This document shows, piece after piece, positions 5,304-34,483 of a stretch of 34,588 nucleotides of DNA; position 1 is the stretch's first letter; every line of letters begins with the position of its first letter. Position numbers and translations under genes: made by a program. The stretch comes from Candidatus Cloacimonadota bacterium. Its GTDB lineage: Bacteria; Cloacimonadota; Cloacimonadia; Cloacimonadales; Cloacimonadaceae. The DNA lies in assembly GCA_017995405.1 (NCBI GenBank), contig JAGOIY010000001.1:1-34588 (forward strand). Reading direction: 5' to 3'. The notes below the pieces were generated by a model. The model made no database searches. It saw nothing but the letters and a program-made list of their open reading frames with translations, and was not told where the DNA came from.

Positions 5304-5329
5304 CGTTCCTCCCAAACAAGTAGGTGGTA

Positions 5330-18400: not shown

Positions 18401-19157
18401 TCCAGTTCACCCAGGGCATGATATCAGCGTCAAACATGTTGTGCTTGATCACCAGAATGCGTCCCTGTTCTGCCAGAGAGGGATACTTGGCCTGCTGGAA
18501 GTTGAGGAACATGTTTTCGTAGATGCCCTCAAACTCCTCGCTATAGCTGTTCTTGGGAACGGAAAGGGAATTGGTGAGGTCCGTGCCGGTGTTGTTGAGC
18601 GCTACCTGGATTTTGGTGTATACTCTCAAAGTTCCGGTGGAGGGGAAATAGCTGAAAGGCACGAAGCGGACCGTGATGCCACGATAGTCCCTGAGGATAA
18701 ATGGCTCAGTCAATTCGGAGTTGCTCTGGGGCCATGCTTCGGTCCCGGAGTAGAAGGGTGCAAAGCTGTAGGGGACGCTGTCCGGATCGATATCACGGGT
18801 CAAATTGCCTTTGGAGGGTGCCACCTGCATGGGAATATCCACATACTCGCTGAGGACGGTGCTGAGCTCCATCCTGGCCGTGTTGGGGATGATCACACTG
18901 CCGGCCATCACAGGAAGCTGAGGCAAACCGCTCTCCAGAGTCAAGCCAGCTTTTTTAAGATCGATATGATACCAAGTGCTGCCGTTGATTTGAACGGCTT
19001 CCCGGTTGAAATGGCCCAGAGTGAGCTCCAGGACCATGTTGTCGGACTGGCTTTGGACAAGCCGAACCTGGTTTTGATTGGGTCCGACGGTCACCTGCTC
19101 CGCTGTCAGTCCCAAAAGGGTGAGCAACAGGGTCAGGGTCAGTATCAAATGTTTCAT
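15462..19157 (-). CDS. Gingipain-like C25 cysteine peptidase with adhesin modules and C-terminal sorting domain
   Basis: This is a secreted cysteine protease of family C25, 1231 aa from the ATG at 19157 (GGAGG 5 nt upstream; an in-frame ATG at 19169 lacks an SD). Layout: signal peptide MKHLILTLTLLLTLLGLTA; pro-region with beta-strands (about 20-230); C25 domain (about 233-565) with catalytic His432 in YVGHGSDTSW and Cys465 in IVSVACVNGNF; Ig and CARDB-like repeats (about 570-900); a jelly-roll/cleaved-adhesin-like domain (about 908-1043, ISFWKKVSSEQ and DDCAWIDDIIFP); an ASH-like domain; and a C-terminal domain opening GNYPNPFNP and ending KKMIMMK. The C-terminal domain is the type recognised by type IX secretion, consistent with porU-porV nearby. 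It is probably a single-gene unit with its own promoter and terminator. Confidence 0.92.
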   Translation of the reverse strand: MKHLILTLTLLLTLLGLTAEQVTVGPNQNQVRLVQSQSDNMVLELTLGHFNREAVQINGSTWYHIDLKKAGLTLESGLPQLPVMAGSVIIPNTARMELSTVLSEYVDIPMQVAPSKGNLTRDIDPDSVPYSFAPFYSGTEAWPQSNSELTEPFILRDYRGITVRFVPFSYFPSTGTLRVYTKIQVALNNTGTDLTNSLSVPKNSYSEEFEGIYENMFLNFQQAKYPSLAEQGRILVIKHNMFDADIMPWVNWKRQNGYQVDVVDVSVAGPTANNIKTYIQGQYDLNNGLMFVQIVGDAPQVPTLTSGGGGSDPSFALLAGGDSYPDIYVGRFSAQTVTELQTQVTKAVEYERDRVAGNVWLQKAMGIASNEGGGSQGDMGESDQAHMELIRTDLLGYGYTSVDQMYQTQGATAAQVSANLNQGRGFINYVGHGSDTSWVTTGFSNTHVNALTNDNMLPVIVSVACVNGNFTSQTCFAEAWLRAKNNSTGEPTGAVAMYASTVNQGWNPPMRGQDEVTDLLVAEAKKTIGGLYFNGSSKMIEVYGTSGISEYKNWTIFGDASLMVRTKDPMPLTANYNPILFMGMNSFTVDTIAGARVTLSANGTVYGHAIADLTGNAVVSIPTPPVEPMDLTLTITAFNREAHIATVQVLPSTGPYVVVTGMTVTDNNNNQADFGETVNIGFGLNNVGSGAAQGVVMNLSTTSPYLTVLSGQDSIGDIPAETTGGTVTGFTIQIAANAPDQHVAPLDLLITLSDNTTYAYTRNLTVNAPNMQWGALLVDDSVGNNNGRVEAGETVTLSFPINNLGGAQANDLISALAINNGTNVSDPVQTTFTALPAGGSVNMIYTVTFSSQIPVGTTINMTAMVFSGMYSAMQTYTMNVGQVMEGFEGGFGGYDWVFANGNWTTVPGSYNGTTAARSATISHNQNTSMSVTMVSQAAGNISFWKKVSSEQNYDYLKFYINNTLKNQWSGTNDVWSQLTYPVNAGTNTYKWEYVKDSMVSSGDDCAWIDDIIFPSTGGTTGAPMISMDITSLDYGDILLGETPVLPVTINNVGDAVLIGTVETSAPFSIVDGGGNLLEQMNVVIQPSSFLQFDLRFAPSAAGSFDGSLIINTDDSANPSIVITLSGTANPVANDDPILPAVTALKGNYPNPFNPRTTISYSVKEQGPVSIGIFNLKGQLVKTLVSEAKAAGDHTVVWEGDDDNGRQVSSGIYLYKMYSGKYTSTKKMIMMK

Positions 19158-19274
19158 TGGATCCTCCATGGATTCACGACTTTTATTTAATGTATGAGGA
19201 GCGTAGGATTCCGATCCGACGAAAGTCTGAGACCGGCATTCTCCGCTTCAGTGTTAATCTCTGCTAAAATGAGT

Positions 19275-19383: not shown

Positions 19384-22300
19384 TTATTTCATCAACATCA
19401 TTTTTAGGGTTTTTGAGTAACCGGCCGCTTCCATGCGATACATATAAATACCGCTGGAGACGCTGCGCCCGCTCTCGTCTTTGCCGTTCCAGATCACTCT
19501 GTGATTGCCGGCTGGCAGGTTTGAATTGAGCAGGGATTTCACGAGCTGACCTTTCAGGTTGTAGATACTGAGCCTCACGGGACCAGCTTCACGGGTCGAG
19601 AAGCGGATGGCAGTCTCTGGATTGAAGGGGTTGGGATAGTTGCCTTCCAGCTTGGTGACGGCTGGAATCACAGGATCATCGTTTGCTACCACCGCGCTTA
19701 CTGTGATTGGGATCATCACAGCAGGATTGTTGGCATCATTGGATGAAACGATGATCACATCGTCGAGGTTGATGGCTGGAGTGGGAGCAGTGTAGCTGAC
19801 CATAAACACCTGATTGAGCCCGGCCTCAAGGTTGTAGGAATAATCGGGAGGCAGGACGGTGCCGTTCATCGAGAGCACGAAACCAGTGGGCATAGTGATC
19901 ATGCCACTCATAGTAATATTGCCCAGATTGCGAATCACCAGGTCGGCACTCACAGTGCTGCCAGCGGCAACTTCCGTGAAAGAGATGGCCTCATTGGGAC
20001 AATAGAAAATGGCCGCGCTGGAACTGCCAGCCATCGGGAAGATGATATCGTCCACCCAGCCGCAGTCGCTTCCGGAACTCACAGATCCGTCCTTGGTGTA
20101 TCTCCAGCTAAAGGTATTCGGACCAGGCTGGACTGGATAGCTCATCTGGGTCCAATCCTGAGTTCCGCTCCATGAGGCCAATTCAGTACCGTTCATCAGA
20201 AAGCGCAGGAAATCGTATCCGCTCTCGCTGGAGACCTTTCTCCAGAAGCTGATGTTTCCGGCCGCGCCAACGTTGAGGGTCAAAGACAGCTCTGTGGTAC
20301 CATTGTGCGATATGGTGCCGGATTTGGCACCGTAAGTGCCACCATGGGAGTTGTTTGCACCGCTCTGAATGGTCCAGGGAACGGGGCTGTTGTTAGTCCA
20401 GGGATAGTTGTTGAAGTTTCCGGCTTCAAAATCCTCGCCAGTCATGCCAATCGGCATAGAAATGGTGTGGTTGATCATCTGCGCGCCGGCATTGATAGCA
20501 ACTCCCAGAGAAATCACCGTTCCTGTCTGCAAGTCACCAGCCAAAAAGGCGATCACGCTGATTTGAGCGCTGGCCCCAATCGACATAGGGGGCAGGACAA
20601 AGCTTTCGTTGTCCAGAGTTACGCCAGGATGGTTGGGCACGATCACCATGCTTCCACCGCTGATGGGCATGTGGCCGTTGTTGGCTAAGGCCATCTGGAT
20701 GGTAACTACTTCACCGGGCTCGAGGAAGCCATTGGTGTTGCCGTCGTTCATGGTCACGCCAGTAATTTGAAGATCGGCAGCGTATGCAGTGATACTGCGG
20801 CTTGAGGACCAGGTATTGCTGCCGTCTGTGATGCTTATGTCGAAATTGATGACCTGCTGATCAGGAATCATGGGACTGATTTGAACGCTGAACAGGTCTG
20901 TGACATCAATGCTGCTGCCTGCTGGCACGTTTGGAATCGGGGAACTGGCCGTTAGTAGTGATACCCAGGGATTGGTGGTAGTGAGGCTGGCAGTGAGGCC
21001 AGTGGCTTCCACTACTCCTACATTGTTAAAGCTGATGTCCATGGATATGATCTCACCGGCTTCGGCCAGGCCATTCTGGTTAGGATCGTTGACGGTGATG
21101 GGACTGACGGTCACATAGGGCCCGGAATTGGGAATCACCTGGATGTTGGCGATCAGGGGTTTACGCATGGAGCGCGTGATCACCAGCTGGGCTGTTCCCG
21201 GCTCCGTGAAAGGAGTGAAGCTCAGGGTCATATTGCCAGTGGCATCCACCAAACCGGTACCGTGCAAAATGCCATTCATCGAAATGGCCACATAGCTGTA
21301 GGGGTCAGCGATAATATCAGCACTACCCATGCCGAGGAAGATCGTCTCGGGAACCACAGCAGAATTCAAAGCGGGAATCCCAAGATATGGGATCAGGCTG
21401 GCATCGCCCATCACGGAATAGATCTCCCAATAATAGTTGATGCGGGCGCTGTTTGACTGCACCACAGCCATATTGCCCATGAAAGTGGCGGCGCCGACAC
21501 TCGTAGCCCAATCGGCCAGGGGCTCGTTATGTTCGTGGAACATCGAGTCGTAGGCACCGGTCCGGCCAGCGATGAAAGGAGAGCCGGAACCTACCACGGG
21601 GGGCTTGTAACCTACTCCCCACCAGTAATCTTCGTCCCAATAGGTGCTGTTGGTGCCGCCGATATAGATCACTCCGCCCTTGTTTTCGGCTCTCAGCCAG
21701 GCTTCCGCGAAGCAGACGTTGGTGTTGAAAGCGCTGGTGAGACAGCAGTTGCCAACCACAACCGGGCATTCGTTGACGTTTTGAAGCCCGTTGACGTTAG
21801 CTACTCTGAAAGTGGGATCGGCCCAGCTGGTCTCACTGCCGTGGGCAGTGTAGTTTACATAGCCCACTCCGTTGGAGACGTTCTGGATGATCTGGCTGTC
21901 TGAGGATCCTGAAGCCGGATACATGTAGGTGAAGCTATTGATTCCGTGAGCGGGATTGAAATAGTTGTTGACCCCGTAGTTGATCTGGCCATTGGCATGC
22001 GTGGGGGCCCAACTGGGATCGGCACCAGCGATCATGACCACGTCGCCAAGATAGGCATCGCTGGGCATGGTGTACATTTCATGCATGAGAGTCTTATTGA
22101 CCTGGTTGGTCACCTGGGCTTCGGTGGTGGCGGAAAAACGACCAAAGTACATTTCTGGCACAAAGTCGGTGCCCTGAAGGCGGACATACGTGAGGTCCGT
22201 CACGTGGGAACCGGTTGTGCCTGTATTTGATGGCACCTGAGCGACATCACCAACGATGAGCAGATAACTGGGTGCGGGGTTGGCGGTTGTGGCGTTGTTC

Positions 22301-23178
22301 CAGATATTCTGAAGATAAGTTTTGATCGCGTTTGCGGTGGTACCCGTCTGAGTTGTGGTAGCCACGATCACGTTGAAGCCTTCCTTGATCTTCCAATCCA
22401 CAAAGGGCTGCAGGGCAGTCACAAAGTTGGGAGGTGTGATGATCAGATAGCTCATGGGATAGCGGTTCAGAGTAGCCCTGTTGTCTAATGGGTTAAGCAG
22501 GCTTTTCTGGTAAATGCCATTAAAAGCGGGCGAGTAATAACGTTCTCTGAGAGCTTCGGTGGCAGCCAGATCGGCCCCGGCGAAGTCCACTCTGATCTCA
22601 GCTTCGACGATCACTTCGATCTCGCCCTGAGCGGGATTGTAACGCACAGGCATAAAATCCAGGGCAAAAAGTCTGACACCACGCATGTAACCGATCTCTT
22701 CCACCCGGACGAAGGGTTCCTGAGTCCAGGCTGAGCGGTTGTAGAAATCGCGGTTGACCTCAAAAGAAATGTCGGCAGGATTAGCGCTCTTGGAGACGGA
22801 TTCCTGGCGTGGCATGATCGGATAATTGATCCCGCGGGAAGCCAACGCAATAATCTGTCTTTGTGCGGTTACGATGCTGGGCACCACGGTGGCACCTTCC
22901 GGGACGGCAATAATCTGCCTCTGCAATGGCAGCTTTGGCAGGCCGGTCAGATTGGTGCTGGTATAATGCTGAACAGACAGGTCTGTAAATCTTCCTTCAG
23001 GGGTGTCCATATCCTGGTAATCCAATTTGTCCAGGGTGTAGCGTACGCTCAACCCATTCTGCGCTTCACGCAGAAGCTGCACAGAACTGGGATTCTGAGA
23101 AAACACGATGCTTCCCTGCGCTGCCATTAATAAGGCCGCAAGGCTCAGTAGCATGAGTAGTATGAAGTGCTTCTTCAT
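19384..23178 (-). CDS. Second gingipain-like C25 cysteine peptidase with C-terminal sorting domain
   Basis: 1264 aa from the ATG at 23178, chosen because AAAGGAG lies 5 nt upstream; an in-frame ATG at 23193 precedes the SD. Layout: signal peptide MKKHFILLMLLSLAALLMAA; pro-region (about 22-240); C25 domain (about 243-640) with His446 in YTAHGSETSW and Cys479 as the second Cys of VVGNCCLTSAF, spaced 33 residues; two Ig/CARDB-like repeats each with a NGxxExGE-like turn; a jelly-roll domain (about 930-1065, SFWRKVSSESGYDFLRF); an ASH-like domain; and a C-terminal sorting domain with GNYPNPFNP and terminal LKMMLMK. It is a clear paralogue in architecture of the neighbouring C25 gene but diverged in the catalytic domain, so likely a different cleavage specificity. 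Protein export by a type IX-like route is inferred from the C-terminus. Confidence 0.92.
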   Translation of the reverse strand: MKKHFILLMLLSLAALLMAAQGSIVFSQNPSSVQLLREAQNGLSVRYTLDKLDYQDMDTPEGRFTDLSVQHYTSTNLTGLPKLPLQRQIIAVPEGATVVPSIVTAQRQIIALASRGINYPIMPRQESVSKSANPADISFEVNRDFYNRSAWTQEPFVRVEEIGYMRGVRLFALDFMPVRYNPAQGEIEVIVEAEIRVDFAGADLAATEALRERYYSPAFNGIYQKSLLNPLDNRATLNRYPMSYLIITPPNFVTALQPFVDWKIKEGFNVIVATTTQTGTTANAIKTYLQNIWNNATTANPAPSYLLIVGDVAQVPSNTGTTGSHVTDLTYVRLQGTDFVPEMYFGRFSATTEAQVTNQVNKTLMHEMYTMPSDAYLGDVVMIAGADPSWAPTHANGQINYGVNNYFNPAHGINSFTYMYPASGSSDSQIIQNVSNGVGYVNYTAHGSETSWADPTFRVANVNGLQNVNECPVVVGNCCLTSAFNTNVCFAEAWLRAENKGGVIYIGGTNSTYWDEDYWWGVGYKPPVVGSGSPFIAGRTGAYDSMFHEHNEPLADWATSVGAATFMGNMAVVQSNSARINYYWEIYSVMGDASLIPYLGIPALNSAVVPETIFLGMGSADIIADPYSYVAISMNGILHGTGLVDATGNMTLSFTPFTEPGTAQLVITRSMRKPLIANIQVIPNSGPYVTVSPITVNDPNQNGLAEAGEIISMDISFNNVGVVEATGLTASLTTTNPWVSLLTASSPIPNVPAGSSIDVTDLFSVQISPMIPDQQVINFDISITDGSNTWSSSRSITAYAADLQITGVTMNDGNTNGFLEPGEVVTIQMALANNGHMPISGGSMVIVPNHPGVTLDNESFVLPPMSIGASAQISVIAFLAGDLQTGTVISLGVAINAGAQMINHTISMPIGMTGEDFEAGNFNNYPWTNNSPVPWTIQSGANNSHGGTYGAKSGTISHNGTTELSLTLNVGAAGNISFWRKVSSESGYDFLRFLMNGTELASWSGTQDWTQMSYPVQPGPNTFSWRYTKDGSVSSGSDCGWVDDIIFPMAGSSSAAIFYCPNEAISFTEVAAGSTVSADLVIRNLGNITMSGMITMPTGFVLSMNGTVLPPDYSYNLEAGLNQVFMVSYTAPTPAINLDDVIIVSSNDANNPAVMIPITVSAVVANDDPVIPAVTKLEGNYPNPFNPETAIRFSTREAGPVRLSIYNLKGQLVKSLLNSNLPAGNHRVIWNGKDESGRSVSSGIYMYRMEAAGYSKTLKMMLMK

Positions 23179-23276
23179 CTCCTCTCCTTTCATTCTTCTT
23201 AGTTATATTTGGTTAACAAAAATTCCAAGCTCAATTCATTGTCCTTATAAGATAAGCAAGATTGATACCTAAGCCC

Positions 23277-23298: not shown

Positions 23299-23397
23299 CC
23301 GTAAAACTATGATTCCCAGCCTAATCATCCAGCCCACAGACGCTTAGAAAGTCGCAATAATAGTCTATTTCTGCCGAAATTCCTTACTTAACAGAAA

Positions 23398-23431
23398 CGT
23401 GAAGCCCTGTCCAAGATGGCAGGGCTTCACG
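23398..23431 (-). terminator. Intrinsic terminator of the porU-porV-lipoprotein operon
   Basis: CGTGAAGCCCTG (23398-23409) and CAGGGCTTCACG (23420-23431) form a perfect 12-bp stem with a 10-nt loop, 12 bp after the lipoprotein stop. On the minus strand it is followed by TTTCTGTT. Confidence 0.8.
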
Positions 23432-23443
23432 TAGAGGGTTAAA

Positions 23444-24211
23444 TCACTGGATATAGACGATCCGTTCCAAAGATTCAGCACCCAGATACTGCTGACGTTC
23501 TTCATCCCAGTCAAAGGAATCAATGCGCCAGTAAATCCCTTCGCCGGAGTGCTGAGTGAGCAGATTTACCGGAATGTCCATAAAGAGCTGTTCTTCCATC
23601 GCAGTGGGGAGGTCCTGATGCCACAGATAGTTATGATTGGAATCAAACAAAACCAGCCTGTAAATGGAGGCAAAACCGCTGCTGTTCCAATATACTCTGG
23701 CCCCTACCGGAGAAATGGTGGCCCCATTGGGAGGGTCCAGAAGCACCGGTTTGGCCAGGAGGGCATAGGATACAGTGTCAGACCGGGCTGTATTGCCGGC
23801 AAAGTCTACTATGTCAATGAAATATGAATACCAGATTCTCTCGGGTAGTTGATCCCGGCTGTCCAGATAGTAGTCATTGTTGGGAGCGATGGAATCAATC
23901 TGCACCGGAGTGGGATTGAATTCGTCAAAGCGCCAGATCCGTACCAGGTTCAAATCTTCATCTATAAAGGGTTTCCAGGCAATCCTGATCCAGTTTCCGT
24001 CGGCAACCGTGTCGATGCCGTTATTGTCTTCCGTCAGAATCGCCGATTGTCCATAATAGGTGGTGGGTGGATCTCCCACGTCTCCCAGGTGGGGAACCAT
24101 GGTGGGTGGAAAAGGTGGAGTGGTGTCTTCTTCCGGTTTATCAGTGCCGGAGCATGATATTAAAATCACGGTTAACATGAGCAGGGCAATAAGTTGCAGG
24201 GTTTTGGACAT
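23444..24211 (-). CDS. Lipoprotein with FN3-like region, in operon with porU and porV
   Basis: The 255-aa protein begins MSKTLQLIALLMLTVILISC, a lipoprotein signal with the lipidated Cys at residue 20. A Thr/Pro-rich linker (about 25-45) follows. The body has FN3-like character: WIRIAWKPFIDEDLNLVRIWR (about 70-90), RIWYSYFIDIVDFAGN (about 125-140), and a second half with PPNGATISPVGARVYWNSSGFASIYRLVLFD (about 160-190). GGGAG lies before the ATG. It starts 14 bp after the porV stop and is followed by a strong terminator, so it is the last gene of that operon. No family name is recognised. Its place suggests an outer-membrane-associated partner of PorU/PorV, which is inference only. Confidence 0.85.
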   Translation of the reverse strand: MSKTLQLIALLMLTVILISCSGTDKPEEDTTPPFPPTMVPHLGDVGDPPTTYYGQSAILTEDNNGIDTVADGNWIRIAWKPFIDEDLNLVRIWRFDEFNPTPVQIDSIAPNNDYYLDSRDQLPERIWYSYFIDIVDFAGNTARSDTVSYALLAKPVLLDPPNGATISPVGARVYWNSSGFASIYRLVLFDSNHNYLWHQDLPTAMEEQLFMDIPVNLLTQHSGEGIYWRIDSFDWDEERQQYLGAESLERIVYIQ

Positions 24212-24225
24212 GGTATTCTCCCGGG

Positions 24226-25320
24226 TCAGAATCTCAAGCGCAAACCCAGACGGTTTGTGACACCGACCGGATTGGTAACCAGCGCGTAATCGAGATTTAC
24301 GTCGTAGATCTTTACTGAAGCACCCAGGCTGATATTCTTGTCATAATATCCCGCCCGTAGGCTTCCTTTGTTGTTATAGTCCCACTCCACGCCATAGTGG
24401 CTGGTGCCTTCATATACATAGTCATAATCGTAGGCCAGTTTGAGTTCTGATTTCAGAGGGGGTATGGGTTGACGGATGGCGAGGCCCAGTTTGGTGTTGA
24501 AAAGCACTTCGTCCTTGATCTTGTTCACCGTGTCCCACGCGATATCGGTTCCGGCTACATCCTGGAAATTCATGGCAAAATCCAGCTTCCCCAATTCCTC
24601 CACATCGAAGATCACGCCCATATCTGTAGTGATCTTAAACGACAGGTCCACACCAGTCCCGGTTCCGTAGTTTGTCCTCAGTTTCCGTTTGATAAACTTG
24701 ACGTTACCGCCCAGGTAGAAATCAAAGGGAATTTCAAAGAACAACCAGCCCATATTGGCGTCATAGCGAAAATGCTTGGCAAAGGCAAACTGATAAAGAT
24801 CATCGGTACTGTCAAACTCGCTGTCCGGGACTCCAGGCAAGTGGTAGGCGCTGTTGTTGATACGTTGGTCCACATTCGTCCCGATCAGATAGCTTTCCGA
24901 AAAATACGGGATATCGCTTACCGTGAGTCTGGTGAGATTGAGACCAATGCTCACCCCGTTTGGCAGTGGCTGGATATAACTGAGATTGTCATAGGATGCC
25001 AGCCCTCCATACAGAAAAGCGTGCATGGCCGCCACTTCCCTTTCTGTGATGCCTGCAATACCGGAAGCATTCCAAAAGATCGCGGAACCGTCATCAGCCA
25101 AGGCTGAAAACGCTCCTCCCATTCCAAGCGGCCGGACTCCGGCCCCGATCATCATAAAGTCTCCCGCATAGCGTCCAGCGCTCAAAGAGAGAATGGACAC
25201 ACAGGCCAGGAATATCAGAAGGAGTCTGGGGGCATGGAAGGGTGGAAGGGTTCGAGGGCTGTGACAACCAGTCATCTCAGCTCTCTCATCCTGCTCAGTT
25301 ATGATAAATTGCTGCTTCAT
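24226..25320 (-). CDS. porV: PorV/PorQ-family outer membrane beta-barrel protein
   Basis: PorV is the outer-membrane shuttle that carries type IX substrates from the translocon to the PorU sortase. The 364-aa protein has the family's N-terminal block AGDFMMIGAGVRPLGMGGAF (about 52-71) followed by ALADDGSAIFWNASG. The rest alternates amphipathic strands with aromatic ends and finishes in a Phe (GLRLRF), as outer membrane barrels do. AGGAG precedes the ATG at 25320. That start gives an unusually long 30-residue charged lead before the hydrophobic LLLIFLACVSILSLSA; an ATG 15 codons later (25275) would shorten it. The gene follows porU by 8 bp. PorU-PorV adjacency is common where type IX secretion exists, supporting PorV over PorQ. 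Confidence 0.85.
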   Translation of the reverse strand: MKQQFIITEQDERAEMTGCHSPRTLPPFHAPRLLLIFLACVSILSLSAGRYAGDFMMIGAGVRPLGMGGAFSALADDGSAIFWNASGIAGITEREVAAMHAFLYGGLASYDNLSYIQPLPNGVSIGLNLTRLTVSDIPYFSESYLIGTNVDQRINNSAYHLPGVPDSEFDSTDDLYQFAFAKHFRYDANMGWLFFEIPFDFYLGGNVKFIKRKLRTNYGTGTGVDLSFKITTDMGVIFDVEELGKLDFAMNFQDVAGTDIAWDTVNKIKDEVLFNTKLGLAIRQPIPPLKSELKLAYDYDYVYEGTSHYGVEWDYNNKGSLRAGYYDKNISLGASVKIYDVNLDYALVTNPVGVTNRLGLRLRF

Positions 25321-25328
25321 CTGCTCTC

Positions 25329-28300
25329 CTATTTGAGGATGGCCATTTTCATGGTCTTCTCAATAGTCTTGTTGCCTTTACGGGCAATCACTTTGTAAAA
25401 ATACACGCCATTAGCCAGCGGGAAGCCTGCTTCATCCTTGCAATCCCAGGCATAGAGCGTGCGGGGATATTCATGATAACCCACTCCCGTGGGCAGATTG
25501 GTAAAGGTTTTCACCAGACGTCCGGCTACCGTGTAAACTTTGATGGTAACCTGATCGGCATCGTCGGTCAGCACATAGGTGAATCTGGTGCGACCGTCAT
25601 TTTTGGGGTCTTCTGCTCTTCCCAGTATGGGATTGGGATAATTGCCGATCTTGGTGATGTTGAAGGTTTCGTTGACAATAAACTGAATTTCGCGGGTGTT
25701 GAAGTTTCCGTTCACGTCCTTACAATCCACCACCAGGGTGTAGTTGCCCCTTTGTAGATTGAGCTGATACTTGATCGGGATGCGGTTGATATTATCCAGA
25801 TTTATCGAAGCCACATACTCGTTATCCTGCACTTGGGTGCCGTTGAGGTAGAGTTTGATCGAGTTGTCAAACACGTCGATCCCGTTGGCATCGCTGAGCA
25901 GCAGAGAGATCGTGCCTTTCCCGGAAACATAGCCGCCGATGGTAAACTCCTGGTCCTGCACATTTACGTCGATAGTAGGCCTGATCAGGTCCCGGTTGCG
26001 GAAGATAGTGTAGATGCCGTGTCTTCTGACTTCAAAGACGACTCTATCCTCTGACGCGGAGATATTACCACCCTGGAGGATCCATTTTCTGCCAGAAGCG
26101 TCCCAACGGTATATCTTGTAGGAGTTTTCTGCTTCCTGGCTCTGAGTGGTCTGGTCCAGAGCGCTGTAGAAGAAGGTGAGTTTCATCCTTTTTCCACCCA
26201 CAAAGGTGCCGGTGGAGTCCACGAGCGCTTCGTTCAGGGTCTTGATCTCATATGCCAGAGAGGATACCGGATTGGCAGCCCCGTCTGAAGAAAGAAGTTT
26301 TATGGGGTGGATATCTGGCTGGTTGCTGGCAGTCAGGGTGCCCACGCTGTTCACATAAAAGACTGCTGAGCTTCCGGATGGCACCAGGTCCGCGGGAATT
26401 TCACAAAGGACATTGGCATCCACGGAGGGAATGACCAGACCATTGGAATCGACACTATGGTAGTTATAAGGCAGCGTCAAAGTGATGATGTTGTTGGTAT
26501 TATAGAATAGATGCCATTCCGGGAAGCTGTTGCCCCAATTGGCCCGGACTTCAAAATTGACGTTTCCGCTGGGCAGACCTGCCAGGGGAATGGATTCCCA
26601 GCGCATTTCTTCTACCGCCAATGGACCAAGCACCTGGGTGCTGAACTGTGTCTGGTTTGCGCCATTGATGCTCACATACAAGCGCAGATCGGTGTCTGCC
26701 GATTCCGCATTACCCACATTGGATACCAACACCTTGAGCGCGAACTCGCCATCCTCATTGTCCAGTTTGATGTCTCGGAGAAAAAGGTCGGGCCCCGCGT
26801 ACACCAGATTACTCAGAAAGGATTCATAAACCACGGTCCCGGTGCTGTCCTGGGTGCTGATCGAGTATTTATAAAACACTTCTTTTCCAGTTATTTGGGG
26901 ATCCAGGCGACCTGTGGTAGTCCAGGTATTGTTGTCAGGGTCAGTAAGCTGCATAGGCAGATCGACCCAGTTGATCGTAGTTCCCACACTATCGGTGCGC
27001 ACTTTGCAGGTCATGGAAAGAATTGGCGTCGAGGAAAAAGCCCTGGCCATAAAGGCCACGGAATCTCTCCAGGCCGGGGTCGCAGGTTCTATGGCATGAT
27101 GAAAAACGGCTGGCCGTCCCACTCCAAATGCCGATACACCCACATACTCGTTCTGAGAGGAATATCCAGCCACATAGATTTTGCGGGTATAGGGATCTTC
27201 GCCTGTGGCGGGGACCACATAGCTGGCATTGTAGTTGCCATTGATCACCGGAAGGTCGAAGGGGACGTTGATCACCTTCTCGTTCTCTTTCATGATATAC
27301 AGACGCGCCGCGGTGACCGTGCTTGGAAAAACCGCGTTCACTCTGAGCGTATCGCCATGAGCGAGCACGTGGGATACCGCGCCAACCTGAGCGTCTCTTA
27401 CCGGCTTTCTGGGTTTGATCGTCGGATCTCCCATATATGAAGCTCCGTTTGTGAGGGCATAACGGGCCGCGGTGGAAGTCGTTGTGGTGAAGAATCTTGC
27501 CAGGGCAAATTGGACCGCTTCGCCCGCCGAAGGAAAGTCTTCTTTGAAAAGAGCTTCCGTCAAGGCCAGGCCCCAATCTTCATCCTGGTCCAGATAACCC
27601 AGGCCGCTGAATCCCAGAGTGGCAATCGAGCCTTTGTCGGCCTGCATGATAAGGGCTTCACTGATAGACGCGGAGCCGTTGGTATCAAAAGCCGAGGCAT
27701 AACAAGCCAGGCTCACCACGATCGGATAAGTCTGATTGTTCAAAGTGGCCACGTCGTTGAAATTGAAAAGGTTATAATCCGCCCAGATACGACCTCCGCC
27801 ATGGCCCATAAACTGCACGTACTGGGTGCCGCTGTTGATGGCATCCTTGAGGGCAAAGGTGCCGCCAAAGTAATCCGGGCTCACGGTTTGCGTGGAAGTA
27901 TAAACCCGGGTGACGCGATAATCGTCTGATACGTTCCTGCGTTTGATCCGCTCGGACTGCTGGGCAAAGATATCATTGGAATCGGTGATCTTCCCTCCGG
28001 AAGTGAAGGTGAGATGGCTGTTCCAGAGCCGATTGGGCAGAGGATTGTTGTGGTAGTTTTCCATTTTTGTAACCACCGCAGGGATCTGGTCTGTCCTCCA
28101 CACTCCCACTCGGGCTATGGATATGTCTGGCACCGTATCATTTCCGACAATGCATGCATACCAGTTGTCTGAAGCCGTTGCGCCATGCTTGTAGGTCCAG
28201 GTCTTTTTGACCGGGATTACTGCATACTGTCTGGAAGGGCTGTTGTCACGCTCATCATCTACTCCTTCACCCAGTAACAGCACATGCCGCAGTTGCGGTT

Positions 28301-30353
28301 CCGCCCAGTTGTTGTAAGCGTAGGATAACAAGCTTTTAATGGATTGTGCGTCCCGGATACCGCTGTTGAACTCGTCAAACACGTCCTGGATATCCACCAT
28401 CATGACGGTGTATCCCTTGCTCTCGTAGAGGTCTTTAATCCTGGTACCGCCCTCGGAATTCAAGAGGTCCCGCCTGCTGATCACGATGATCTCAGCTTGA
28501 TTGGAAGGATCCCTAAGATCGGATGGGATATCCAGCCTGGCCAGCTTGGGAATCATCTTCTGGCTCTCGGTGCATGCGTAATATTCAATAGCCGTGGAGG
28601 CTACGCTGTCCTGCATAGTAACGGTCCAGGGAGCCATGCCGTTGAGGTCGAAAGATTCGATCTGGACGCTGTTGAAGACGCTGGAACCGATTTTGTAAAC
28701 CGATATGTCCCCGCTCGAAAAGCCTTCCAGGGCAAACTGATAGAGGCCTCCAGGGCGGTTGGAGGGTTTGGTAAACTTGATAAAGTCTTCGGTGGTCTTG
28801 TATTGCCGCCAATACTTGACCTCCACGTAGTCCAGCAAGACCTGTTCCCTATCCCCCATCACGGTGTTACCAGACAGGCTGATAAAGAGGTTGTTGGTGC
28901 CGTTCCGGATAAAGGAATTGGGTATGGGGTTGGCGTTTTGGAACACTTGCTCTGTTTGGCCTACCCAGGTATGAGTGTTGATCATTGCCTGGTTCAAGCG
29001 CACAGATGCTTCGTGGTCCCACTGGCCAGGGATCAGGGTTTCTGAATAGGTGAGGCCATGCAGGGCAACCTTGGCACTGGCAGTACGGATAGTGCTGTCG
29101 ATCGGAAACTGCAGTTCGATGGGCACGATTTCCAGATTGGGAGCGCTGATCTTTTTCCAAAACCACACGTCTTCTTTATAATAAGTGGGGTTGGCGGCAC
29201 TCCACCCTCTGCCAAGTTTGTCACTTACAGACTGCTCCTGGAATATCGCGGTGTATTCATAAGCGTCGGGAGATATGTAATTACCGCTGCTATACTCGAT
29301 CAAGCCACCGTTTTCAACCGCCATCCTGGCACCCAGAGTGTCCTTAAGATAAAGCGTGTAAACGTTTTCGGCGGTGTAATCGTCCATGTAGCCAGTATCT
29401 CCAGCATGACGACGGCCATAAAACTCAAAGTAGTCGCCACTGTTGAACGCCCCATCGGTTTCGCCCACAAAGTGGATAGGGACCGTCCCGTTCTCATCAC
29501 TGAGTTCCAGTCTGCGGGGATCAAGAGCACTGAGGTCCCAGGCCATGGTCAGGCCCAGAGAGTCCGTCTCGGTGCTGATCAGGTTTTGCAGAAAGGCCTT
29601 GTCTACTTTATAGATCCCATCTTTATCGACGATCAGCTGGATCCGTGAAACCTGACTGCTGCCGTTTTTGGGGGACTGATAACTGCCGTCTCTGGTTTTT
29701 TCCAATCTCCAGGCTTTGGAACTGGCATTGTTCAGAAAAAACCTATCCGCCACATTATCGATGGGATTCTGCGAGAACTGCCAGTTTTTGGCCTGGGATT
29801 TATCACCGATGATACTCACGCGAATCCTGATCGAGCTATGCACCGTCAACTCTTTGAGGGCCGGACGGTATTGAAAAGGATTGATCCGGATGGGAATAAA
29901 GCGCCGGTCACCGATAAAAGCCGCTTCGCTTTTGGAGGCAATGCTTTCAGGATATAGCTGTTTGCTGTTGTATATCCGGGGGTCCTGGAAAAACTCGTAG
30001 TCCACTTCCCAATCGCCCACCACCATCTTTTTGGCGGGGTAGAGATTGATGTTTTTGATGACGCTGCTTTTTGAGCTCAGCACCTGAATGCTGATGTCTC
30101 CATCCACCGGAACGGCTATCGCCTCCGAGTAAGCTCTCAGCTCAGGATAACCTTCCTGAGCATCCACGTTGCCGTAATCCGACACGATTCTCTGCCAGGT
30201 GGTACTGCCGTCTCTGCTGTGCTCGATGCTGTATTCCGGAAGCTGGAACTCCAGAATCAACTCATCAGGTGTCTCGCTGCTCACACTGATGCCAGTGGCA
30301 GAAAGTGCCAATGGCAGGACCAGCAGGAGCGGCAACCATATATGTAGCTTCAT
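25329..30353 (-). CDS. porU: PorU-type C25 peptidase (type IX secretion sortase)
   Basis: PorU cleaves the C-terminal sorting domain of type IX cargo at the cell surface and couples it to an anchor. The 1674-aa protein has a signal peptide (MKLHIWLPLLLVLPLALSA), a long N-terminal beta-rich region (about 20-610), and the C25 catalytic domain (about 620-960) with His851 in QFMGHGGGRIW and Cys884 in VSLACYASAFD. Ig-like and CARDB-like repeats follow (about 1010-1270), then a region with GGKRMKLTFFYS and an IYTIF strand. The C-terminal FlgD-like domain opens GNYPNP and ends KTMKMAILK. Compared with Porphyromonas PorU (about 1160 aa) it is longer by some 500 residues, mainly after the catalytic domain. 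SD AAGGCGG precedes the ATG. porV follows at 8 bp. A secreted C25 protease rather than the sortase is the alternative; adjacency to porV favours PorU. Confidence 0.88.
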   Translation of the reverse strand: MKLHIWLPLLLVLPLALSATGISVSSETPDELILEFQLPEYSIEHSRDGSTTWQRIVSDYGNVDAQEGYPELRAYSEAIAVPVDGDISIQVLSSKSSVIKNINLYPAKKMVVGDWEVDYEFFQDPRIYNSKQLYPESIASKSEAAFIGDRRFIPIRINPFQYRPALKELTVHSSIRIRVSIIGDKSQAKNWQFSQNPIDNVADRFFLNNASSKAWRLEKTRDGSYQSPKNGSSQVSRIQLIVDKDGIYKVDKAFLQNLISTETDSLGLTMAWDLSALDPRRLELSDENGTVPIHFVGETDGAFNSGDYFEFYGRRHAGDTGYMDDYTAENVYTLYLKDTLGARMAVENGGLIEYSSGNYISPDAYEYTAIFQEQSVSDKLGRGWSAANPTYYKEDVWFWKKISAPNLEIVPIELQFPIDSTIRTASAKVALHGLTYSETLIPGQWDHEASVRLNQAMINTHTWVGQTEQVFQNANPIPNSFIRNGTNNLFISLSGNTVMGDREQVLLDYVEVKYWRQYKTTEDFIKFTKPSNRPGGLYQFALEGFSSGDISVYKIGSSVFNSVQIESFDLNGMAPWTVTMQDSVASTAIEYYACTESQKMIPKLARLDIPSDLRDPSNQAEIIVISRRDLLNSEGGTRIKDLYESKGYTVMMVDIQDVFDEFNSGIRDAQSIKSLLSYAYNNWAEPQLRHVLLLGEGVDDERDNSPSRQYAVIPVKKTWTYKHGATASDNWYACIVGNDTVPDISIARVGVWRTDQIPAVVTKMENYHNNPLPNRLWNSHLTFTSGGKITDSNDIFAQQSERIKRRNVSDDYRVTRVYTSTQTVSPDYFGGTFALKDAINSGTQYVQFMGHGGGRIWADYNLFNFNDVATLNNQTYPIVVSLACYASAFDTNGSASISEALIMQADKGSIATLGFSGLGYLDQDEDWGLALTEALFKEDFPSAGEAVQFALARFFTTTTSTAARYALTNGASYMGDPTIKPRKPVRDAQVGAVSHVLAHGDTLRVNAVFPSTVTAARLYIMKENEKVINVPFDLPVINGNYNASYVVPATGEDPYTRKIYVAGYSSQNEYVGVSAFGVGRPAVFHHAIEPATPAWRDSVAFMARAFSSTPILSMTCKVRTDSVGTTINWVDLPMQLTDPDNNTWTTTGRLDPQITGKEVFYKYSISTQDSTGTVVYESFLSNLVYAGPDLFLRDIKLDNEDGEFALKVLVSNVGNAESADTDLRLYVSINGANQTQFSTQVLGPLAVEEMRWESIPLAGLPSGNVNFEVRANWGNSFPEWHLFYNTNNIITLTLPYNYHSVDSNGLVIPSVDANVLCEIPADLVPSGSSAVFYVNSVGTLTASNQPDIHPIKLLSSDGAANPVSSLAYEIKTLNEALVDSTGTFVGGKRMKLTFFYSALDQTTQSQEAENSYKIYRWDASGRKWILQGGNISASEDRVVFEVRRHGIYTIFRNRDLIRPTIDVNVQDQEFTIGGYVSGKGTISLLLSDANGIDVFDNSIKLYLNGTQVQDNEYVASINLDNINRIPIKYQLNLQRGNYTLVVDCKDVNGNFNTREIQFIVNETFNITKIGNYPNPILGRAEDPKNDGRTRFTYVLTDDADQVTIKVYTVAGRLVKTFTNLPTGVGYHEYPRTLYAWDCKDEAGFPLANGVYFYKVIARKGNKTIEKTMKMAILK

Positions 30354-30451: not shown

Positions 30452-31726
30452 CTATAGATCATTCTTGCGCAAGCCTATGTCCTTGCGGAAGTGCATGTTC
30501 TGGAAATGGATCTGATCAATATCCCGGTATGCCTGAGCGCGGGCAGAATCTTTATCTGGCCCCGTGGCCGAGACGCAAAGCACTCTGCCTCCACTGCTTA
30601 CCAGCATGTCGTCTTTACTCTCAACCCCGGAGTAGAATAGCCTGGACTCCAAAATGGCCGGTATCTGCAGTTCATATCCTTTGGCAAAGTTGCCTGGATA
30701 ACCTCCGGAAGCCATCACTACCGCCACGCAGGATTGATCGCGCCAGTGTAGTTTCAGGTCTCTGACCTGCCCAGTCACGATGGCCTGGCAAATCTCCACC
30801 AGGTCCGTATCCAACAGAGGGAGCAGCGCTTGTGTCTCGGGATCGCCAAACCGGCAGTTGAATTCTATCACTTTGGCCCCCTCAGCGGTGATCATCAATC
30901 CGCAATACAAAATCCCGGAAAATGGACAGCCTTCGTCGCGAAGGGCTGCCAGAACGGGACTTATAATGCGGGATTCGATTTCCGACCTGTAGGGCTCGGC
31001 TTCCGGGACCGGAGCGTAGGCACCCATACCACCGGTATTGGGGCCCGCGTCATGGTCCAGCAGTTGTTTATGATCTTGGGAAAACAGGGTCGTTACATAA
31101 TCCTGTGAATCGGTTATGGCAAATAAAGATACTTCCCAACCGCTCAAGTATTCCTCGATCACTACTCCTTTTTGAGGTTTGGAAGGAGAATTGTATGCCC
31201 TCCCATCGGTTTGGACGCCCATCAGGGTCTCTAACGCGGACCTCGCTTCGATGGCATCCCGCACTATGATAACTCCCTTCCCCGCGGCCAGTCCATCTGC
31301 TTTGATCACAGCCGGATACTTGCAGTCAACGGCGCAATAGCTCAAAGCTTCGTCCAGTGAAAAGGTGTGAAAAAAAGCCGCGGTGGGAATAGAGTATTTT
31401 TGCATGAGTTGCTTGGCGAAAATCTTGCTGGTTTCGATTCTTGCGGCTGCCTGTGAAGGGCCTACACACGGAATGTCCAATTCTCGAAGTCTATCCGCCA
31501 GGCCTCGTTCTAAAGGCTGTTCAGGACCCACGAAGACAAGATCGGGACGATATGTGGCGCAATAATCAATCTGCTCCTGAAGCGTGCTTAGTGGAAGGGT
31601 ATCAAAATCTTTAGCGATGCCAGCATTACCGGGGGCCACTAACACATTTGAGACTTTGGATGAGCGCGCGAAGGCAGACGCGATAGCGTGTTCTCTGCCA
31701 CCGCTGCCTATCACCAATACTCTCAT
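30452..31726 (-). CDS. purD: Phosphoribosylamine-glycine ligase (GAR synthetase)
   Basis: This is the second step of purine synthesis: ATP-dependent joining of glycine to phosphoribosylamine. The 424-aa protein matches PurD throughout. It has the N-terminal loop [12 protein letters not shown] (about 4-15), then APGNAGIA, and an ATP-grasp domain with [17 protein letters not shown] (about 136-152). The PurD signature [18 protein letters not shown] (about 226-243) follows, then [16 protein letters not shown] (about 288-303). Its ATG overlaps the cinA stop by ATGA, so purD is translationally coupled to cinA. It is not next to other pur genes in this window. folD, which serves the one-carbon supply of the same pathway, is in another operon. 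Confidence 0.97.
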
Positions 31727-32976
31727 TGGTCGCGTCCCATGATCTTTTTTGCCAAAGTCAGGATTGCCATTTCAGCCGCCTTATGTCTGATAATCTCTCT
31801 GGAACCCGTAAATACATGGCGCTGAGTCCAGACTTCAGCAAGATAAGAAAACCCAAAATACACGGTACCAACAGGTTTGGAATCGCTTCCACCGGAAGGT
31901 CCGGCTATACCTGTCACAGAAATAGCACAAGCTGAATCTGTCAACCTTTTTATTCCGGTCACCATTTCTAATGCTGTTTCTTCGCTCACGGCACCATGCT
32001 CAGCAAGTGACGTTTCACTAACGCCCAATATATTGTGTTTTAGCTGATTATGATAGCTAACCACGCCTCCCAGCAGGTAATCCGAAGCTCCGGCTTCATC
32101 GCTCAAAATCTTGCTGACCAGGCCTCCCGTACAGGATTCCGCCAGGGATATTGTCAAGTTTTTATCTCTGAGCAAGCGTCCCAACACCCCGGCGGGAGTG
32201 TCTTCATCGATGCCCCACACCAGTTCAGGAATTTGGGCTATCAGTTTGTCCGCGGTATCATTTATCATATTCTCGTCGTGCCCATAGACTCTCAGGTCCA
32301 CCCTGCCCGTCTGAGGCAGCCAGGCAAATCCCAAGTCCTTGGGAATTAACGATGTATCCAACCTTTCTGCCAAAGCGGATTCCGAAATCCCAAAGGTGTG
32401 GATGCTGCGCTGAATCACTTTGCTGAGATGAGGATAGCGCGCGTGAACGATGGAACTGATATGGTTATCAAACACATGTCGCATTTCCACTGGAACTCCG
32501 GCGAGTGCAAAAAAGCACTTGCCGTCCCACTCGTATTGCAGCCCGGGAGCCGTTCCCATCTGGTTTTCAAGCGCGACAAAGTCCCGCGGGACCATAGCCT
32601 GACAGCGATTGATCTCAGGAGCTTTCAGACCCCGTCTGGCAAACAGAGACTGCACAAACTCCCAGATATCTTGATGAAAGACAAGCTCTTTGCCAAAGAA
32701 AGACGCGATCGTGGCTTTGGTGATGTCGTCCGCGGTGGGACCCAATCCCCCCGTGCTGATCACGATGTCATATCTGCCAGTGCAGTATTCCAGCGCTCTG
32801 GTGATCTCATCGGCATCGTCTCTGATCGTGACGCTATACAGCACCGGAGCTCCCAAAGCGGCCAGTCCCGCAGCCAGATAAGCCAGGTTGGTATTGACCG
32901 TCTTACCCAGCAGAATCTCGTTTCCGATGCTGATGACGGCACTGCTGACCGGCTTCAAATCAATAGGCTTTGGCAA
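31723..32976 (-). CDS. cinA: CinA-family protein (MoCF-like domain plus NMN-deamidase domain)
   Basis: The 417-aa protein has two domains. The N-terminal molybdopterin-binding-like domain (about 10-175) carries [15 protein letters not shown] and [14 protein letters not shown]. The C-terminal PncC domain (about 255-412) carries [22 protein letters not shown] and [11 protein letters not shown]. CinA proteins are associated with pyridine-nucleotide salvage (NMN deamidase, ADP-ribose pyrophosphatase) and, in some species, with competence; DNA uptake cannot be inferred here. The start is taken as TTG at 32976, 17 bp inside the proS end, where AAAGGGTG gives an SD. A TTG six codons later is the alternative. 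Confidence 0.94.
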
Positions 32977-34483
32977 AGATCACCCTTTTATGAGAGGCTT
33001 TCCCGCAACACACGCAGTTCCCGTCTTCCGCTTCACCGTCAAAGGGTATGCAGCGCACCGTGACCTTGAGATCGTCCTTGATCTGCTCTTCACAGGCTAC
33101 GTCGCCACACCAGTGAGAAAGCGCGAAACCGCCATGAATCTCAGGCTGCTCGGCATTTTTGGGGGTAAAATAGCTGTAGAACTCGTCGCGGCTGTCGATG
33201 CGGACGGTATTGGCCTTTCGGAAAGCCACCGCGTTCTGATAGATGGAGGTTTGCATATCCAGCATCGCCTGGATGGCATGCTCTCTGAGCTCTACCAGCG
33301 GAACGGACTTTTTGTCTCTGGGCTCCTGATCGCGACGGGCCAGCATCACAGCCTGGGAAGCCACATCGCGGGGTCCGATCTCGATGCGGAGCGGGATGCC
33401 TTTTTTGATCCAATACCAGTTACGTTCACCGGAGGTGAGGTCTCGATCGTCCAGTTCTGTATAGATTCTGATATCATCCAGCATGGCGCCACGGAACATT
33501 TCCACGATCTGATTGGCCATATCCAGCACGGCCACTTTTTCCTGATCGTCTTTATATATAGGAACGATGGCAATGTGGGAAGGCGCGATCTTGGGAGGAA
33601 GCACCAGGCCGTTGTCATCGCTGTGGGCCATGATCAGAGCTCCGATCAGACGGGTGGAAACACCCCAGGAAGTCGTCCAGGCATAGTCAAATTCGCCGGC
33701 GCGGTTCTGATAGCGGATGTTTGAGGCTTTGGCAAAATTCTGGCCCAAGAAGTGGGAAGTACCGCTCTGCAAGGCTTTTTTATCCTGCATCATGGCTTCG
33801 ATGCAATAGGTGCTCACGGCCCCGGGAAACTTCTCGCCTTCCGTCTTTTCACCTTTGATCACTGGAATGGCCAGATAATCTGAAGCGAAGCGGGCATATA
33901 CATCCAGCATCTTCATCGTCTCATCCATGGCCTCAGTTTCAGTTTCATGCACGGTGTGGCCTTCCTGCCACAGAAATTCCGCGGTCCGTAAAAACAGCCG
34001 GGTGCGCATTTCCCAGCGCACGATGTTGGCCCACTGGTTGATCAACAGCGGCAGATCGCGATAGGAATTGACCCACTTGGAAAAAGAAGCGCCGATGATC
34101 GTTTCACTGGTGGGACGCACAATGTAGGGCTCCGTGAGCTCTCCCGCCACTTTCAAACCGCCGTTTCCATCCGGTTCCAGACGGCTGTGAGTCACGATCG
34201 CGCATTCCTTGGCAAAGCCTTCCACGTGTTCGGCTTCTTTTTCGAAATAGCTCTTGGGGATAAAGATTGGAAAGTAGGCGTTGCGATGACCGGTCTCGCG
34301 AAACATCTGGTCCAGCACCCTCTGGATGTTTTCCCAGATGGCATAGCCCCAGGGCTTGATCACCATACAGCCTCTCACATCGCTGTTTTCAGCCAGGTCG
34401 GCGGCCCGGATTACCTGCTGATACCACTCCGCGTAGTTTTCCTCGCGGGTCGGTTCTATCGCCGTGCGTTTATTCTTGCTCAT
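32960..34483 (-). CDS. proS: Prolyl-tRNA synthetase, archaeal/eukaryotic type
   Basis: This class II synthetase charges tRNA-Pro. The 507-aa protein is the short form lacking the bacterial editing insert. Motifs: YFPIFIPKSYF (about 70-80); motif 2 region RWEMRTRLFLRTAEFLWQEGHT (split here as RWEMRTRLF then LRTAEFLWQEG, about 155-176); motif 3 WGVSTRLIGALIM (about 275-287); the anticodon domain; and a C-terminal zinc-binding domain with HWCGDVACEE and NCVCCGK. It ends in Tyr (FAKAY), as in this subtype. GGAG lies 5 nt before the ATG at 34483. It overlaps cinA and heads proS-cinA-purD. Confidence 0.97.
   Translation of the reverse strand: MSKNKRTAIEPTREENYAEWYQQVIRAADLAENSDVRGCMVIKPWGYAIWENIQRVLDQMFRETGHRNAYFPIFIPKSYFEKEAEHVEGFAKECAIVTHSRLEPDGNGGLKVAGELTEPYIVRPTSETIIGASFSKWVNSYRDLPLLINQWANIVRWEMRTRLFLRTAEFLWQEGHTVHETETEAMDETMKMLDVYARFASDYLAIPVIKGEKTEGEKFPGAVSTYCIEAMMQDKKALQSGTSHFLGQNFAKASNIRYQNRAGEFDYAWTTSWGVSTRLIGALIMAHSDDNGLVLPPKIAPSHIAIVPIYKDDQEKVAVLDMANQIVEMFRGAMLDDIRIYTELDDRDLTSGERNWYWIKKGIPLRIEIGPRDVASQAVMLARRDQEPRDKKSVPLVELREHAIQAMLDMQTSIYQNAVAFRKANTVRIDSRDEFYSYFTPKNAEQPEIHGGFALSHWCGDVACEEQIKDDLKVTVRCIPFDGEAEDGNCVCCGKASHKRVIFAKAY

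Follow-up and report, generated by a model that had tools for sequence, protein, structure and literature searches.

A porU-porV-lipoprotein operon as the probable outer membrane attachment end of a divergent type IX secretion system in Cloacimonadota

Introduction

Three closely packed genes on a contig of a Candidatus Cloacimonadota bacterium, encoding a homolog of the sortase PorU, a PorV-type outer membrane barrel, and a lipoprotein, raise the question of whether a type IX secretion system is present in this organism and what the lipoprotein would do beside it. The genes lie in a stretch of 34,588 nucleotides (assembly GCA_017995405.1, contig JAGOIY010000001.1, positions 1 to 34,588), referred to here as the window. 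A preliminary description, made from the letters alone, had read them as the surface end of a type IX-like system and the lipoprotein as a candidate lineage-specific replacement of PorQ or PorZ, which form the attachment complex of Porphyromonas gingivalis together with PorU and PorV. Our analysis suggests that the operon probably encodes the outer membrane attachment end of a type IX system that is divergent yet genuine, and that the lipoprotein would serve it as a glycan-side partner.

In published accounts, type IX secretion is proton driven and has the PorLM motor at its center (PMC8754138, PMC12421860). For the Cloacimonadota, it has been mentioned in passing that the system may occur there (PMC11285876). 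Beyond this mention, we found nothing in the literature searched on the composition of type IX systems in the phylum or on type IX systems that lack a motor. Proteins of Cloacimonadota with C25 peptidase and dockerin domains have been reported, in the accessible part of that source without an analysis of type IX secretion (PMC8542988).

Results

The first gene of the operon encodes a PorU homolog. Among the NCBIfam models, PorU (NF033707) scored best with 273 bits, compared to 173 bits for PorU2 (NF052324), on which ground PorU2 was rejected as the better name for this protein. The Peptidase_C25 domain was matched with an E value of 7.8e-74, and the closest match in the PDB was P. gingivalis PorU (6za2), with which both residues of the His-Cys dyad align (Table 1). 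The sorting domain at the C terminus (CTD) is the best-conserved part of the protein. With 104 amino acids (aa) it is longer than the CTDs of the two neighboring C25 proteases, 85 aa each, a relation also seen in P. gingivalis, where the uncleaved CTD of PorU has 108 residues and the cleaved CTDs of cargo proteins have 67 to 88 (PMC11285876). As had been noted in the preliminary description, the protein is about 500 residues longer than its P. gingivalis counterpart (1674 versus 1156 aa in 6za2). About 215 of the surplus residues precede the catalytic domain and hold a gingipain-type propeptide, which falls within residues 1 to 237, outside the NCBIfam PorU model; about 320 more separate the catalytic domain from the CTD, and a CARDB-like domain is among them. 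Searches with PorU gave matches in all 118 Cloacimonadota genomes surveyed, the best match in some genomes being only a remote C25 protein. One PorU homolog (G048:C16:19583-24592) contains a single in-frame TAA.

The second gene product has the fold of PorV. The NCBIfam models PorV2 (NF052325, 84.6 bits) and PorV_fam (NF033709, 69.7 bits) both matched it, as they did all 30 relatives examined, and the name PorV2 may yet apply to this protein. A profile built from 30 PorV sequences had a single match in the PDB, the PorV subunit of the Flavobacterium johnsoniae translocon (6h3i_F). The AlphaFold2 model is a barrel with a predicted local distance difference test score (pLDDT) of 84, and its top Foldseek matches were again PorV in the solved translocon structures (8gl6_F and 6h3i_F, template modeling score of 0.64 to 0.69), ranking above relatives of FadL. 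The window protein (364 aa) carries about 28 extra residues before the signal peptide relative to its homologs (about 336 aa). A good ribosome-binding site precedes the start codon at 25320.

A translocon is present elsewhere in the same genome, so that these genes are not the sole type IX core components it contains. A full-length open reading frame (ORF) of 2,064 aa scored 479 bits with the Sov/SprA model TIGR04189 (cutoff of 200) and matched SprA in the PDB at 3e-42; its neighbor is coaX rather than type IX genes. Across the phylum, the SprA_N domain was found in 106 of the 118 genomes, including every one of the 71 with a completeness of 90% or more and a contamination of no more than 5%. 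The window's own genome has 68 matches to Por_Secre_tail. Two of the likely cargo proteins lie directly downstream of the operon, where domain matches bear out two single-gene C25 proteases with Por_Secre_tail/FlgD_ig sorting domains and candidate catalytic His and Cys residues. Because Sov/SprA, the 68 sorting-domain matches, the PorU dyad, and the PorV fold occur together, the presence of a divergent type IX system in this genome is supported.

Searches for PorL, PorM, and PorN, proposed in the preliminary description along with those for sov and porZ, gave no convincing match. The GldM_1st profile had no match above its cutoff in any of the 118 genomes. The sole match below it (G011, E = 7.5e-4, 20 bits) was attributed to chance, as the surrounding genes are ordinary (L086) and there is no gldKLMN operon. 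As a control, GldM was detected in 15 of 15 Bacteroidota genomes, which had been chosen from a scan for the GldL motif; among the matches listed for that scan, all 80 loci were from Bacteroidota. The Pfam profile GldL_N, which lacked a positive control of its own, found nothing in the 118 genomes, and neither did the GldN (PorN) profile, which likewise had no control and matched nothing anywhere in that search. Full-length profiles made from 30 GldM and 30 GldL sequences of Bacteroidota gave scattered weak matches with E values of 3e-5 or worse, and no motor genes were seen among the neighbors of the sprA loci examined. Recognizable PorL and PorM, and with less certainty PorN, are thus probably absent from the phylum as far as profile searches can indicate, although extremely diverged forms may exist.

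The third gene encodes a lipoprotein with an invariant lipobox. The AlphaFold2 model (pLDDT of 94) predicts two tandem FN3 domains by Foldseek comparison. The protein matched no Pfam or NCBIfam family, and a family profile found nothing in the PDB except one match at E = 0.14. Six scattered weak Pfam matches occurred among 37 family members. Assignment to a known family was rejected on these grounds; the Foldseek matches are only to generic tandem FN3 proteins. In two genomes, the lipoprotein is doubled within a single frame of 484 aa (G050:C7:8740-10155 and G077:C130:10260-11678), probably by tandem duplication. A second match in G101 is an ORF of 563 aa (L133:8189-9877), away from both porUV and the SLBB-wzc genes described below.

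Homologs of the lipoprotein were found in 96 of the 118 genomes. The ORFs, coordinates, and intergenic gaps of the operon (8 bp between porU and porV, 14 bp between porV and the lipoprotein gene) proved to be as first described. Wherever porU and the lipoprotein gene share a contig and strand, in 73 genomes, they are separated by the length of one porV gene (1,029 to 1,208 bp; 73/73). Because the arrangement recurs in these 73 genomes, the packing of the three genes is not due to chance, and the order is conserved through most of the phylum, with the lipoprotein kept beside porUV in relatives. The two genes are on different contigs in 20 genomes, in several of which one of them is near a contig end. 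Twelve of these 20 belong to one family, f12, and G061 (family f5) is also split. In the f12 loci inspected, porU-porV occurs without the lipoprotein gene (loci L088, L096, and L115-L117), which instead directly precedes SLBB-wzc (L097, L108-L113, L131, L132, L134, and L135).

The usual order in most other families is proS-cinA-purD-porU-porV-lipoprotein-SLBB-wzc-ispE-prs. The genes that follow the lipoprotein encode an SLBB protein and a Wzc-like kinase with Wzz, GNVR, and ATPase domains, as in Wzx/Wzy-type polysaccharide export. Unlike in that type of export, the SLBB protein, of about 165 aa, has the SLBB domain as its sole Pfam match and is linked to a sortase operon. In the window's genus (L285, L286, and L287), the SLBB-wzc-ispE-prs block is placed immediately beyond proS, divergently oriented, and the two C25 proteases take its place behind the lipoprotein gene; in the window itself, the block would fall beyond the contig end. 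No SLBB-Wzc genes follow the lipoprotein gene in loci of families f4 and f9 (L099 and L101). The lipoprotein gene therefore bridges the porUV and polysaccharide export neighborhoods, and neither link is absolute.

The N-terminal domain of PorZ was detected in at least 33 of the 118 genomes, including genera of the window's family. The matches examined are propeller proteins of about 800 aa with a CTD. They matched the PorZ model NF052228 with E values of 1e-37 to 1e-49, below its cutoff of 260, and PorZ in the PDB (5m11) at 3e-15, in a search in which two-component sensor propellers scored better. Several of the genes directly follow a Glycos_transf_4 (WecA-like) gene and are close to glycosyltransferases. 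In P. gingivalis, PorZ delivers an anionic glycolipid to PorU (PMC8545088). The PorZ-like proteins and their position argue for a glycan anchor in the phylum and against a replacement of PorZ by the lipoprotein.

The features of the window and the PorZ-like loci are collected in Table 1. The strong terminator reported at the end of the operon stands in part. The hairpin dominates a 71-nucleotide stretch (-33.1 kcal/mol; z of -6.5 relative to shuffled sequences) and its stem is strong; termination is plausible, with a weak T-run (TTTCTGTT) and no listing by a consensus terminator scanner. A minus-strand ORF of 799 aa at 2916-5315 of the window had no Pfam match.

Table 1. Positions of features in the window and of PorZ-like genes in other Cloacimonadota genomes
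Feature	Position	Strand	Basis
porU, type IX secretion sortase homolog, 1674 aa	25329..30353	-	
Gingipain-type propeptide domain of PorU, residues 52-208	29730..30200	-	Propeptide_C25 1.6e-18; 4ief pro-domain match
C25 catalytic domain of PorU, residues 625-980	27414..28481	-	Pfam PF01364
Catalytic His851 of PorU	27801..27803	-	Aligned with 6za2 His; invariant in 32/32 full-length PorU
Catalytic Cys884 of PorU	27702..27704	-	Aligned with 6za2 Cys; invariant in 32/32 full-length PorU
CARDB-like beta domain of PorU, in region longer than P. gingivalis PorU	26490..26747	-	Pfam PF07705 1.6e-5
C-terminal sorting domain of PorU, 104 aa	25332..25643	-	FlgD_ig 4.8e-9; aligned with 6za2 CTD
porV, outer membrane beta-barrel of PorV/PorQ family, 364 aa	24226..25320	-	
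Two-FN3-domain lipoprotein gene, 255 aa	23444..24211	-	
Lipobox Cys20 of lipoprotein	24152..24154	-	Invariant in 37/37 aligned sequences
Hairpin 3' of lipoprotein gene, plausible terminator	23397..23432	-	z -6.5 versus shuffles
Probable cargo, C25 protease (propeptide, Ig-like domain, type A sorting domain)	19384..23193	-	His451, Cys483/484 present
Probable cargo, second C25 protease (propeptide, Ig-like domain, type A sorting domain)	15462..19169	-	His436, Cys469 present
proS-cinA-purD, usual upstream neighbors of porU in family	30452..34483	-	Synteny
PorZ-like propeller proteins with CTD	L277:5154-7577, L278:3527-5896, L279:2545-5079		Near Glycos_transf_4 and glycosyltransferases
PorZ-like propeller proteins with CTD	L280:4629-7121, L281:2345-4786, L282:4015-6447		Near Glycos_transf_4 and glycosyltransferases

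Discussion

We propose that CTD-bearing proteins, such as the two neighboring C25 proteases, would enter the periplasm via Sec and then use the Sov/SprA barrel to pass the outer membrane. PorV would carry them to the surface, where PorU would act as the sortase, removing the sorting domain and attaching the cargo to a glycan at the surface. The lipoprotein is predicted to be a rod of two FN3 domains anchored in the outer membrane. Its gene order suggests that it is most likely located between PorUV and the SLBB/Wzc export side, where it may hold or present the acceptor glycan or scaffold the complex.

This arrangement resembles the P. gingivalis attachment complex in its PorU with a His-Cys dyad and a longer CTD of its own, its PorV barrel, its C25 cargo, which is gingipain-like and has type A CTDs, and, in part of the phylum, a PorZ-like propeller protein. 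It differs in that PorU carries a gingipain-type propeptide domain, PorV is nearer to the NCBIfam PorV2 model, and the third gene encodes an FN3 lipoprotein. The likeness to the Sov/SprA translocon of F. johnsoniae (6h3i and 8gl6) lies in a full-length SprA above the TIGR04189 cutoff and in the PorV fold match, although SprA of Cloacimonadota is about 2,000 to 2,200 aa long compared to 2,403 aa. A further difference concerns the PorKLMN motor and ring, central in the type IX systems studied so far, of which PorL, PorM, and PorN went undetected.

Several observations weigh against the proposed role of the operon. PorU scored below the curated NF033707 cutoff of 420 and PorV below those of PorV_fam (90) and PorV2 (325). 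In addition to the missing PorL, PorM, and PorN, the weak Pfam profile used for PorZ had no match in the window's own genome, which is 83% complete. The proposal assumes an acceptor glycan, and none is known for the phylum. Finally, the link between the lipoprotein and SLBB-Wzc is one of gene order within a long conserved string that includes ispE, prs, and ribosomal genes, and it may be incidental.

The role of the lipoprotein could be read in two other ways. It might belong to the attachment complex in place of PorQ or PorZ, as the preliminary description had it, which would agree with its position as third gene after porU-porV in 73 of 73 testable genomes and with its invariant lipobox. This replacement is not supported because PorZ-like proteins occur in the phylum beside glycosyltransferases; moreover, the f12 lipoprotein lies away from porUV and beside SLBB-Wzc, and a pair of FN3 domains is unrelated in fold to the propellers of PorZ and the barrel of PorQ. 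We therefore regard it as improbable, and a glycan-side partner appears to fit better. Somewhat less doubtful, but still unlikely, is that the lipoprotein serves SLBB-Wzc polysaccharide export alone and stands behind porV incidentally. Every f12 locus examined does have it together with SLBB-Wzc while porUV is elsewhere, yet the window's genus keeps it behind porV with SLBB-Wzc beyond proS, and the f4 and f9 loci have it with no SLBB-Wzc genes following.

The nature of the system as a whole can also be questioned. That PorU and PorV form a PorU2/PorV2-type sorting pair uncoupled from type IX secretion is very improbable: PorV2 is the best NCBIfam model for PorV and was matched by 30 of 30 relatives, but the PorU model beats PorU2 by 100 bits, and the same genome encodes Sov/SprA and many CTD proteins. 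A much more serious contender, if short of an even chance, is that the PorL/PorM motor and the PorK/PorN ring are present and have diverged past the reach of sequence profiles. SprA_N scores in the phylum fall to about 29 to 120 bits, and PorV and PorU fall short of curated cutoffs, which would be consistent with such divergence. Against it, three independent components were negative in 118 genomes, also with full-length GldM and GldL profiles, while the peripheral PorZ domain could still be detected in 33 of them. We suggest tentatively, with somewhat less than even confidence, that the whole phylum has a type IX system with Sov/SprA, PorV, and PorU that lacks the PorL/PorM motor and the PorN ring, uses another energy source or none, and is linked from sortase to Wzc-type polysaccharide export by the FN3 lipoprotein.

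As far as our searches go, neither the phylum-wide lack of a recognizable motor nor the lipoprotein-SLBB-Wzc linkage has been described. If the phylum does keep the translocon, shuttle, and sortase in the absence of the motor, the motor and secretion as such would be separable, and what the motor contributes, be it power, cargo supply, or gliding, would become testable. The conserved lipoprotein-SLBB-Wzc linkage provides a concrete lead to a glycan anchor outside the Bacteroidota.

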